A stretch of 64,000 nt of DNA from Bacteroidota bacterium (GTDB taxonomy: Bacteria > Bacteroidota > Bacteroidia > Flavobacteriales > Schleiferiaceae): contig JANSYJ010000003.1 of the NCBI GenBank assembly GCA_024742495.1, positions 310,001 to 374,000 of the forward strand. The letters run 5' to 3'. Numbering within the stretch: the stretch's first letter is position 1; the number at the start of each line of letters is the position of its first letter. The notes beneath the pieces are model-generated. The model searched no databases and was not told the origin of the DNA. It worked only from the letters and a program-made list of their open reading frames with translations. Shown here piece after piece: positions 6,035 to 46,832 of this stretch. The translations under genes were made by a program, and so were the position numbers.

Positions 6035-7609
6035 ATGAAGAAACTATTTACAATAACCTTTCTATGCCTAACAATGTCGGCTTATGTAAAGGCCCAGGAA
6101 GAAGGTTTACGCGTGTACTTTACCGATAAGGGAAGCAGTACCGCCATTTTGGAGCAAGCAGAATTGTTTTTAAGTCCAGAAGCTCTGGAAAGAAGAGCAG
6201 CCCAAGGCATTGCTGTTGAGAATAGCGATCTGCCGCTTGCCCCGGAATATCTTAAGGAATTGAGAAGGCAAGGAGCTAAGGTCTTAGCGCATTCAAAATG
6301 GCTGAATTACGCCTACCTGACTGGAATTTCAGAAGAGGAATTAAACAGGCTTCCTTTTGTTAAAAAGATTGAACGACCTAAGCAACATCGCAGCTATTTA
6401 GCAGGCACTACTTCCAATTTCGATTATGGTTTGGGTAGAACGCAAATTGAACAAATCAGTGGTCATTTGCTTCATCAGCAGGGCTTTACTGGAAGAGGCA
6501 GCACCATTGCCGTAATTGATGCTGGTTTTACCGGCACCTTACAAGCGGCGGTTTTGGATAGCTTACGCCAATCGGGACGCTTAAAAGGTTCTTACAATTT
6601 TATTAGTGGAGATACCAATGTGTATTCTGGTCAAGGAAGCCATGGTGCCTCAGTACTTTCAATTATGGCAGCCTTAGATACTGGGGCTTTTGTTGGAACC
6701 GCCCCTCATGCTAATTATTGGTTACTCACCTCCGAGAATGTAAGTTCCGAAACCCCTTTGGAGATGGATCATTGGTTAATGGCAGCTGAATTTGCCGATA
6801 GCGTTGGAGCGCATGTTATTAATACCTCTTTAGGTTACACAACTTTTGATGATCCGGCGGACTCCTATTCTTATTCAGATATGGATGGCAATACAACCAT
6901 AGTAACTCGTGCGGCAGATTGGGCTGCCTCTAAGGGCATTATCGTGGTTGCGAGCGCCGGGAATGAAGGATCAGGATCTTGGCAATACATTGGCGCTCCT
7001 GCGGATGGCGATAGTGTTTTAGCGGTGGGAGCGGTTGATGCTACAGGGGCTTATGTAGGATTTAGCAGTAGAGGTCCTTCCTATGATTGGCGCATTAAAC
7101 CCGATGTTGCGGCCATGGGAGCGGGAACGGTATTAATTAACTCTCAAGGTCAGGTACAAAGTGGTTTCGGAACCAGCTTCTCTTCGCCTTGTATTGCAGG
7201 GATGGCGGCTTGTCTCGTTCAAGCGCAACCTACATTGCATGGGGAAGTCATTGCTCGTAATATTCGCAAGAGCGGACACCTATTTGGTAATGCGGATAAT
7301 AATTTGGGCTTTGGAATTCCTAATTTCCAACAAGCATGGCTCATTAGCTCCAAAGAATATTCAGATGAATTTAAGTTTAGTGTTTATCCCAACCCTGCTC
7401 ATGAAAGAGTTTTCATTCACGGAAACTTTGAAAGAGGAGAGATGCTTCATATACAAGTTTTGGATCAATCCGCTAGATCACTCCTGGAACTAGATGTTGT
7501 TTGGGAGAATCAGGCGCTTCAATTAGACTTGACTGAAATTCCGGCGGGCTTTTATCTTCTTAAAATGAAAGGCAGCCAGTCTTATCAAGAAAAAATAATG
7601 TTGCGATGA
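6035..7609 (+). CDS. S8 (subtilisin-like) serine peptidase with T9SS type A sorting domain
   Basis: Asp motif IAVIDAGFTG, His motif SHGASVLSI, Ser motif GTSFSSPCIAGMAA; C-term FSVYPNPAHERV...GFYLLKMKGSQSYQEKIMLR. Confidence 0.92.
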   Translation: MKKLFTITFLCLTMSAYVKAQEEGLRVYFTDKGSSTAILEQAELFLSPEALERRAAQGIAVENSDLPLAPEYLKELRRQGAKVLAHSKWLNYAYLTGISEEELNRLPFVKKIERPKQHRSYLAGTTSNFDYGLGRTQIEQISGHLLHQQGFTGRGSTIAVIDAGFTGTLQAAVLDSLRQSGRLKGSYNFISGDTNVYSGQGSHGASVLSIMAALDTGAFVGTAPHANYWLLTSENVSSETPLEMDHWLMAAEFADSVGAHVINTSLGYTTFDDPADSYSYSDMDGNTTIVTRAADWAASKGIIVVASAGNEGSGSWQYIGAPADGDSVLAVGAVDATGAYVGFSSRGPSYDWRIKPDVAAMGAGTVLINSQGQVQSGFGTSFSSPCIAGMAACLVQAQPTLHGEVIARNIRKSGHLFGNADNNLGFGIPNFQQAWLISSKEYSDEFKFSVYPNPAHERVFIHGNFERGEMLHIQVLDQSARSLLELDVVWENQALQLDLTEIPAGFYLLKMKGSQSYQEKIMLR

Positions 7610-42206: not shown

Positions 42207-45086
42207 GTGCGAAGAATTATTATAGGATTATTACTGGTTTTTATTAGTCATACTATTGCCGCTCAGGAGCTTAAAGGAAGAGTGGTTGATGCCAAAACCA
42301 GTGAAGGTATCCCCATGGCGAGTGTCCTAATTGAGGGCACTAAGCAAGGAACTACTACAGATTTCGACGGAAATTTCAGTTTAGAGCTTAAAAATAAGAG
42401 CTTTCCTTTAAAACTTTCTGTCTCCTTTATAGGCTATCAGCAGGCTGTTTATACGGTGAAATCTGCAGATCAAACGATTCTTATAAGCATGCAGGAGGAT
42501 AGCGAAATGCTAGATGCAGTTGATGTTATCGAGCAGCGATTAAGCAAAAAGCAGCGCGAATCGGCCCTAACGGTAGAGGCCTTGGATAATCTTGCTATAA
42601 AAGAAACTCCAGCGGCAAATTTTTATGAAGCGCTGGGTAACCTTAAAGGGGTAGATCTTACCTCGGCCAGTATCGGCTTTAAAATTATTAATACCCGAGG
42701 TTTCAATTCTACCTCTCCTGTGCGCAGTCTGCAATTAATTGATGGAGTGGATAACCAAGCACCGGGGCTTAACTTTTCACTTGGTAATTTTTTGGGCGCC
42801 AATGAGTTGGATATCACTTCTGTGGATATCATTGCCGGAGCATCAACCGCCTTTTACGGTCCGGGAGCTTTTAATGGCGTAATATCCATGACCACCAAGG
42901 ATCCCTTTTATTTTCAAGGTCTTTCCTTCTCGCAGAAAATTGGTGAAAGAGCACTTTCGGAAACCGCCGTACGCTATGCTGAGTCTTTCCGACTATTCAG
43001 TGAAAAGCAGGATGATTTCGCCTTTAAGATCAACCTATTCTATCTCCGTGCCGATGATTGGGAGGCGGATAATTATGATCCCATAGATGGCTCTGAAGTG
43101 GCTAGGGATAATCCAGGTCGCTATGATGCCGTAAACATTTATGGTGATGAGAGCCTAGCCTCAAATAATGAAAGAAACTCCTTTGAGGACGTGAAGTTTA
43201 ATAACCGTCCGGGTTTAGGGATTTTTTACCGTCCGGGTTTCCAAGAAACGGATTTAGTAAACTACGATACTCGGAATTTTAAAGGGAATATTAATCTGGC
43301 TTATCGCACCGACAAAGACCTGCGTTTTGATTACACCCTTAATTATGGCACTGGAACCACGGTTTACCAAGGCGAAAACCGCTTTAGTCTGCAGGGTATT
43401 CAGTTTATGCAGAATATTTTCCAAGTTTCTAAAAAGGATAAATTTTTCGTTCGTGCCTATGCCACGGTAGAGGATGCTGGCAATAGTTATGATGCGGTTT
43501 TAACCGCTTTTAAAATGAATGATCAGATTTTAGGCGATGAAGCAACTTGGAATCAAGTTTATAGCTCAGCCTGGTCTGGCGCCCCTTTCCGCTTTTCAAA
43601 TGCTTTTCAAAATGAAGCTGGCTTTAATGTGGCTTCTCCCGATTTTGATTCGGCATTCTTTGCCAATGGTTACCAAGACCTGCTGCGAGAGTATAATGAT
43701 CTATTAGCGGGCTACCACGATTCTTTGCTAAATATTATTTCCGCCGATCGTCCAGCTCCAGGCTCGGCTTTATATGATTCTTTATTTAATGATGTTACCT
43801 CTCGCACCTTTACTGAAGGTGGATCCCGATTTTTCGATCGATCAGCCCTCTATCATATTATGGGCGAGTATAGCTTAGAGCCTTGGGAGGGTTATAAGAT
43901 GAGAGTAGGAGGGAATTTCCGCTTATACCGCCCCAATTCACGAGGCAATATCTTCGACGAGGTTATTCCTAGTTCTATTGTTACCGATAGCGTAGGTAAT
44001 ATTATCTCTCAAGATTATCGCCAAATAAGCAACACCGAATTTGGCTTGTACTATGGTGTGGAAAAGTACTTCTTTGGCGAGGTTTTAAAAGCGAGCTTTA
44101 CTTTAAGAATGGACAAGAATCAAAACTTTGATTACTTGTTTTCTCCCGCTGCCTCTTTGGTTTATACCATCGACCCCAACAATACCCTGCGTTTTTCCTT
44201 GGGTAGAGCGATTCGTAATCCAACCTTACAAGATCAATACCTACGCTATGATGTTGGTAGAGCGATTTTATTAGGAAACCTCAATGGCTACGACTCCCTA
44301 ATTACCTTCGATTCATTCGATTTTTACCGCAACCAGCAAAACCTGGATCGCGACAACCTTGATTTCTTTAATGTTGATCCTATTCAACCAGAGCGCGTTA
44401 CCACGGCAGAAGTGGGTTATCGTGCAACCTTGTTTAAGCGGATGTTTATCGACTTAAACTATTTCCATTCTTGGTACACTAGCTTTATTGGTTTTCAGTT
44501 TGGATTAGATCCCCGTTTCGATCCCACTTTCACCGATCGCATCCGAAGCTTGCGTGCTTATCGGGTTGCCGCTAATGCGGAGGGCTTAGTAACCACTCAA
44601 GGGTTTAATGCGGGTGTAAATTACTATTTGGATGATCATCTAAGTATTAATGGTAATTACAGCTACAATTCCATAAATCTCAATCCTTCTGCAAACTTCA
44701 TTACCGAAACATTTTACAAGGATGAGTTGGCCCAAACCGAAACGGGCGACCCTATTGTTCCTGCCTTTAATACGCCAGAGCATAAGTTTAACTTGGGCTT
44801 CACTGGGCGTGATTATAAGATTAGAAATAAGCAAGATCACATTCTCGGCTTTGCCGTGACCTATAAATGGATAGAAGGATTTTTGTTTGAGGGCTCACCT
44901 CAGTTTACCGGTTTTATTGATACCTATGATTTGCTTGATGCCCAAGTGAGTTACAATTACAAGCCTTGGAAAACCATTTTTAAGCTGGGTGCTTCGAATG
45001 TTCTTAACAATAAAGTATTTCAAGTTTACGGAGGTCCAAGAGTGGGGAGATTAGCTTACTTCTCAGTAACAGTGGAACTCAATTAA
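42207..45086 (+). CDS. TonB-dependent receptor with carboxypeptidase-like regulatory domain
   Basis: ELKGRVVDAKTSEGIPMASVLIEGTKQGTTTDFDGNFSL, plug domain, beta-barrel, terminal F; GTG start. Confidence 0.93.
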   Translation: MRRIIIGLLLVFISHTIAAQELKGRVVDAKTSEGIPMASVLIEGTKQGTTTDFDGNFSLELKNKSFPLKLSVSFIGYQQAVYTVKSADQTILISMQEDSEMLDAVDVIEQRLSKKQRESALTVEALDNLAIKETPAANFYEALGNLKGVDLTSASIGFKIINTRGFNSTSPVRSLQLIDGVDNQAPGLNFSLGNFLGANELDITSVDIIAGASTAFYGPGAFNGVISMTTKDPFYFQGLSFSQKIGERALSETAVRYAESFRLFSEKQDDFAFKINLFYLRADDWEADNYDPIDGSEVARDNPGRYDAVNIYGDESLASNNERNSFEDVKFNNRPGLGIFYRPGFQETDLVNYDTRNFKGNINLAYRTDKDLRFDYTLNYGTGTTVYQGENRFSLQGIQFMQNIFQVSKKDKFFVRAYATVEDAGNSYDAVLTAFKMNDQILGDEATWNQVYSSAWSGAPFRFSNAFQNEAGFNVASPDFDSAFFANGYQDLLREYNDLLAGYHDSLLNIISADRPAPGSALYDSLFNDVTSRTFTEGGSRFFDRSALYHIMGEYSLEPWEGYKMRVGGNFRLYRPNSRGNIFDEVIPSSIVTDSVGNIISQDYRQISNTEFGLYYGVEKYFFGEVLKASFTLRMDKNQNFDYLFSPAASLVYTIDPNNTLRFSLGRAIRNPTLQDQYLRYDVGRAILLGNLNGYDSLITFDSFDFYRNQQNLDRDNLDFFNVDPIQPERVTTAEVGYRATLFKRMFIDLNYFHSWYTSFIGFQFGLDPRFDPTFTDRIRSLRAYRVAANAEGLVTTQGFNAGVNYYLDDHLSINGNYSYNSINLNPSANFITETFYKDELAQTETGDPIVPAFNTPEHKFNLGFTGRDYKIRNKQDHILGFAVTYKWIEGFLFEGSPQFTGFIDTYDLLDAQVSYNYKPWKTIFKLGASNVLNNKVFQVYGGPRVGRLAYFSVTVELN

Positions 45087-45133: not shown

Positions 45134-46776
45134 ATGAAAAAAACATTACTACTTCTTTTAGCCTTTAGTGGCGTGGCTGTAGCACAGCGCTATACCGCGG
45201 AAGTATTTACGCAAGTAAATGTAAATGCAAACCAGGCTTACGCCACCAATATCGATTTTCTAACTTCTAATTTAAGTGATCCAGCAGCGGTTGCTGCAGA
45301 TGTTACGGCAATCAAAACGGCATTAGCTACTGGTCAGCCCATTCCACCATCTCACTTTAATCCCTTTGATACCACAACTAAGGTTAAGGTTACTACTTTA
45401 AATATGGACGTTTACAGTCCAATGGGGGATACCGCGACTAACCGTCCGCTTGCGATTTATTTGCACACAGGAAATTTCCTTCCTCCAGGATTAAATGGTG
45501 GAATTAACGGTTCTAAAAACGATAGCTCGGTTATCGTAATGTGTGAAAAACTAGCGAAGAGAGGATTTGTAGCTGTGGCTCCAAACTACCGTTTAGGTTG
45601 GAACCCACTCGATCAAAACCAGTTTGTTCGTCGTGCTCAGTTGTTAAATGCTGTTTACCGTGCATTACACGATACCAAAGAATTAGTGCGCGTGCTTAAA
45701 GCGGACGCTTCTAATTTAGGAATCGATCCAAATCGCATTGTAATTTTTGGTGAAGGATCTGGAGGTTATGTAGCCTTGGCTTATGTTACTCTTGACAAAT
45801 GGGCCGAAGTTGAAATCCCGAAATTCATCAACCCAGCTACTTCTACTTCCTTTGTAGATTCTAACCTTGTTGGAAATATTGAAGGATTAAATGGCTTGCT
45901 AAACTTATATGCCGACAATGGTCAAACTACCGATGTTTCAATGTGTGTAAACCTTGGTGGTGCCTTAGCAGATATTTCTTGGTTAGAAGCTGGTGACGCT
46001 TCTATGATTTCTTTCCAAGCGGTACGTGATCCTTTTGCTCCTTTTGGAGAAGGAACAGTAGTTGTGCCAACTACTCAAGATGATGTAGTTGACGTAATGG
46101 GTGCAAACATCTTCCAAAAGAAGGCAAATGCCCTTGGTAACAACAGTCTTTGGATTAACAATACTTATAATGATCCTATCACTTTAGCGGCACGTGCTCG
46201 CTACGGAGCAACTGTAAATTATATTTTCCCAGCTCCATTTGATACGATTACTATTGCCAATGCCGAAGGTATGTTCCCAGTTTTACAGCCTTTAGCTTCT
46301 AGCTTATTTAACAATACCGGTGCTCCTTGGCAATGGTGGGATCCTAATGGTCCAATTGCTTCAGATACTTTATTAGCAGGTCCTCCGGTAATTACTTATC
46401 ACATGGCTGGTTTAGCTAGTAATCCAAATATGTCACCTCAGTTCGGACGTATGTATCAGGATACTGTATTGGGTTATGTAGCGCCTCGTTTAGTTTATCA
46501 AATGAACTTGATTAGTGCCAAAGAATTCGACTTTAATGCTTCGGTTTCTATGTACCCTAATCCTGCGAATGATGTGCTTAATATTGAGTTAATCAGTGCT
46601 GATTTAGAAATTAACAGCTTTAAGATACTTGACAATACCGGTAGAACGGTATTAGCAGGTGAGCTTAGTGATATCAAGAATCGCATCGCGGTAGACGCGC
46701 TTAAGCCAGGGGGGTTTATGTAATTAGCTTAAACACCGACCAAGGAAGCGCTTCATCACGCTTTATCAAGCAATAA
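45134..46776 (+). CDS. Alpha/beta-hydrolase (carboxylesterase-like) T9SS cargo; C-terminal sorting domain interrupted by an out-of-frame poly-G tract
   Basis: As read, the ORF stops at 46723 (...ALKPGGFM*). Removing 2 G or adding 1 G in the G6 run at 46709-46714 gives ...ALKPG(G)VYVISLNTDQGSASSRFIKQ* ending at 46776. GEGSGG nucleophile-elbow motif. Confidence 0.75.
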
Positions 46777-46799
46777 GCTTTTAAAAATTAATTATAGAG

Positions 46800-46832
46800 A
46801 AAGCCCCGAACCATTGGTTCGGGGCTTTTTTG
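46800..46832 (+). terminator. Rho-independent terminator
   Basis: AAGCCCCGAACC-att-GGTTCGGGGCTTTTTT. Confidence 0.9.

Follow-up and report, generated by a model that had tools for sequence, protein, structure and literature searches.

A single-genome frame break near a six-G run displaces the end of a T9SS sorting domain in a flavobacterial hydrolase gene

Does a run of six G near the 3' end of a hydrolase gene from an environmental flavobacterium act as a switch of surface export, or is the frame break found there a one-off mutation or a sequence error? The preliminary description of the window, that is, the whole 64,000-nt stretch of DNA that was analysed, had noticed that the ORF ends in ALKPGGFM* at this run and that the end of a T9SS sorting domain continues in another frame. 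It offered phase variation, programmed slippage and sequence error as explanations. The features of the locus are collected in Table 1.

Table 1 Features of the hydrolase locus, in window coordinates
Feature	Position	Strand	Remarks
TonB-dependent receptor	42207..45086	+	Adjoins the hydrolase ORF upstream
Hydrolase ORF	45134..46723	+	529 aa; ends in ALKPGGFM*
In-frame part of the T9SS C-terminal domain	46550..46714	+	PF18962 positions 1-57 of 75
G6 run	46709..46714	+	Where the net +2 nt change most likely occurred
Final 20 sorting-domain codons, displaced, VYVISLNTDQGSASSRFIKQ*	46714..46776	+	Other frame than the ORF
Intrinsic terminator	46797..46831	+	16-bp stem and T-run; 3' of the ancestral stop codon

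The hydrolase gene and its displaced tail

The ORF product has a signal-peptide-like N-terminus, a BD-FAE/carboxylesterase-like alpha/beta-hydrolase domain (PF20434, BD-FAE; E 3.9e-11), a GEGSGG motif and a PF18962 sorting domain (E 4.5e-7; 30.5 bits versus a cut-off of 27). Its TIGR04183 score is 17.2 versus a curated cut-off of 23, because the tail is cut off. The genes at 6035, 26462 and 49060, named earlier as comparators within the window, indeed have intact TIGR04183 tails that score above the curated cut-off. The neighbour directly upstream was identified as a TonB-dependent receptor, as had been proposed, and its adjacency to the hydrolase gene is kept in four same-genus genomes (G002-G005). 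This suggests that the genus-conserved pair of receptor and T9SS hydrolase is a functional unit.

The 3' end of the ORF reads GAC GCG CTT AAG CCA GGG GGG TTT ATG TAA, and the frame break was thus confirmed. From 46705 the other frame stays open until the stop at 46776. It encodes ARGVYVISLNTDQGSASSRFIKQ* and runs free of stops, as described, to a point just before a strong terminator, which proved to be real; C-terminal peptides specific to the displaced tail would derive from VYVISLNTDQGSASSR. Restoration of the frame had been thought possible by a change of -2 or of +1. The first is supported by the L-x-x-G-V-Y spacing, which is constant among close orthologues and makes the window net +2 nt relative to its relatives. 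The second, which would create G7 and the sequence PGGVY, has no counterpart in any orthologue read. The G run is the most economical place for the indel, because AAG CCA GGG matches the same-genus LKPG; the KP of LKPGVY in two relatives corresponds to AAG CCA of the window. The adjoining CTTAAG could also hold the net +2 change, giving LARGVY, which is normal CTD sequence.

Comparison with relatives and with the rest of the genome

Homologues were searched in 57 related genomes, and orthologues were found in six same-genus genomes (one with the gene in two pieces, two being single-contig genomes) and in other genera as well. The comparison of 3' ends covered 16 orthologues and three more distant homologues, including the six from the same genus, with identities of 40-88%. 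The tail is intact in all 19: after G-V/I/L-Y come about 18-23 residues before the stop. No G run of five or more occurs at the site in any of them; the longest is four, with GGGG present in three, and the codons at the site differ among homologues (GGA GTT, GGT GTG, GGC GTT, GGG GTG and GGT GTA). It had been set out beforehand that orthologues with an intact frame and no G tract would argue for a simple error or a one-off mutation, and this is the pattern in 19 of 19. The G6-motif pattern CCNGGGGGGTNTAY has 16 matches in the 57 genomes. Among the ten that were located, the target is the only one in a broken T9SS tail, and the others lie elsewhere, mostly in visibly intact long ORFs, for example, nucleotide-sugar epimerase-like genes. 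The genome collections searched yielded no further assembly of this species.

The tail of the nearest orthologue (88% identical) reads EALTPGVYFITIKTDQGSASSRFIKQ and is identical to the displaced tail at 16 of 20 residues, so that the homology of these 20 residues is, judged from the sequence, not a chance likeness. The differences between the two tails fall 3, 2 and 11 times on the first, second and third codon positions (15/10/55%, over 20 codons only), compared with 9.5/4/43.5% for residues 1-455. The third-position excess (11 of 16 differences) departs from an even spread with P=0.004 in this 20-codon sample. The displaced tail still carries coding constraint; selection at the protein level thus acted on it until very recently or continues to do so, indicating that the frame break is either very recent or not real.

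As a baseline, 264 kb of sampled stretches around and including the window were considered, and their genes were compared with the corresponding stretches of the four same-genus genomes. Among the 85 genes compared, the target was the sole frame break. Three apparent N- or C-terminal frame differences in neighbour genes, considered as signs of general assembly damage, were upstream or low-complexity alignment ends. Runs of exactly six G/C are common, with 168 on both strands of the 3.6-Mb genome, and about 22 are longer. Of all runs of six or more, 47 were examined in context, and none of the 46 others interrupts a gene; those sampled are either intergenic or within genes that are intact. The absence of other breaks in the 85 genes and at the 46 runs indicates that the assembly is not generally damaged at homopolymers, and genome completeness is 99.92%. 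In a sufC-like ABC ATPase gene, a G8 within the SGGE signature motif (G000:C32:60925-60932) is in frame; as a control for homopolymer calling, it makes neither gross miscalling nor obligatory run instability evident.

The longest G/C run seen in the genome is a C10 on the coding strand (G000:C31, 3109-3118 of the stretch examined). It lies some 20 codons from the start of an RHS-core-like ORF, and the 4.96-kb contig carrying it has several RHS-like 3' cassettes. This run is a better slippage candidate than the G6. Two nine-base G/C runs (G000:C19:81310-81318 and C29:19082-19090) are both outside long ORFs.

PF18962 has 111 matches in the genome. Two were flagged with internal stops; in both, the alignment had run through a natural stop codon. 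In the rest of the genome, the 30 CTDs with the highest scores are all intact and have at most four G in a row.

Origin of the frame break

We consider it somewhat probable that an isolated, very recent net +2-nt indel arose in the sequenced strain. Most likely, strand slippage lengthened an ancestral run of four G (compare LKPGVY in relatives) to G6, and the two added nucleotides would put the final 20 codons of the type A T9SS sorting domain out of frame. Non-clustered frameshifts have been attributed to error or recent indel, with an indel likelier near the 3' end (PMC3711429), and on this scheme an indel is favoured over an error, because the break is non-clustered and near the 3' end. On this reading the deposited base count would be real. 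Against the indel, the same data would be expected from a base-call or consensus error at this one site, and a gain of two in a four-base run is less usual than a change of one in either direction.

A sequencing or assembly error, with a truly intact gene and a wrong base count at the run in the deposited consensus, is a possibility to be taken seriously, if not a probable one. None of the relatives read shares this singleton break, coding constraint on the tail is normal, and many homology-confirmed singletons are expected to be errors (PMC3711429). However, the genes and runs examined, the in-frame G8 and the completeness of the genome are at odds with such an error, and a two-base excess in a short run is untypical of errors.

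Phase variation, in which slipped-strand changes at the G run toggle the T9SS tail and hence surface export, is improbable. In its favour, surface exposure of the product is predicted and the alternative frame has kept the tail, but the tract is unconserved even within the genus (0 of 19 homologues), six G is short and common in this genome, and recurrence was seen in 0 of 30 sampled CTDs of the same genome. Moreover, the frame would be regained only by losing two G or by gaining one, and the G7 made by such a gain has no known counterpart. A homopolymer switch confined to one species, toggling the export signal and so the location of the hydrolase between surface and periplasm, is more doubtful still. 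Programmed -1 ribosomal frameshifting or RNA-polymerase slippage yielding some full-length protein is the least credible, since the site is unconserved in relatives and the downstream RNA structure is not unusual (fold z = -0.74, with no stimulatory fold), even though, on the sequence reading, a P-site GGG could shift back by one base with perfect pairing and would then read the tail frame. Slippage at a low level may nevertheless occur. Were the site a conserved switch or a recoding signal, one would expect it to turn up again in relatives or in paralogues, or else to show a long tract or a stimulatory fold. None of these features was seen, which leaves both of these earlier proposals unsupported.

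Export of the hydrolase and relation to known systems

The same genome encodes T9SS machinery, including GldK (567 bits) and PorV (453 bits). An AlphaFold2 model of the nearest orthologue was poor over the hydrolase (mean pLDDT 35.8, from a shallow alignment) and fair over the sorting domain, where ten-residue blocks score 61-81 from residue 471 and seven strands are formed. The last two strands of the model (526-534 and 538-545) are absent from the window ORF, which has neither intact C-terminal strands nor the conserved terminal Lys motif; these two strands are encoded only in the other frame. Mapping in P. gingivalis placed the T9SS signal in the C-terminal 22 residues, equivalent to the last two strands (PMC4804311), and RgpB lacking two C-terminal residues stays in the periplasm (PMC11285876). 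With the two strands missing and GldK and PorV present, loss of surface export is a well-founded prediction from homology, the structure model and the literature, in line with the preliminary description. If the indel is real, the shortened protein would retain its hydrolase domain and signal-peptide-like N-terminus without the last two CTD strands, and one would expect it to enter the periplasm but not to be exported to the surface.

If real, the break would have truncated a T9SS export signal naturally and would cleanly test whether the last ~20 residues are needed in this genus; an error would mean only that the gene model is wrong. In either case, a frameshift at a homopolymer that is seen in a single genome should be compared with orthologues before phase variation is called.

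Compared with the T9SS type A sorting domain (PF18962/TIGR04183 Por_Secre_tail), the in-frame part scores above the PF18962 cut-off and the displaced tail matches orthologous tails, whereas the ORF itself, without the last ~20 residues and the final two strands, falls below the TIGR04183 cut-off. Poly-G tracts make surface genes phase-variable by slipped-strand mispairing in Campylobacter or Neisseria. The hydrolase gene resembles these in encoding a secreted protein and in having a run of G where the frame breaks, but its tract is short, unconserved and non-recurrent in the sampled paralogous tails. With the terms used, a literature search for poly-G phase variation in Flavobacterium turned up no open-access paper. 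As a feature of the sequence the frame break is real; biologically it is ordinary. Like the GeneTack 'fs-gene' singletons (PMC3711429), from which we found no difference, it is a homology-confirmed break, present in one genome only and located near the 3' end.
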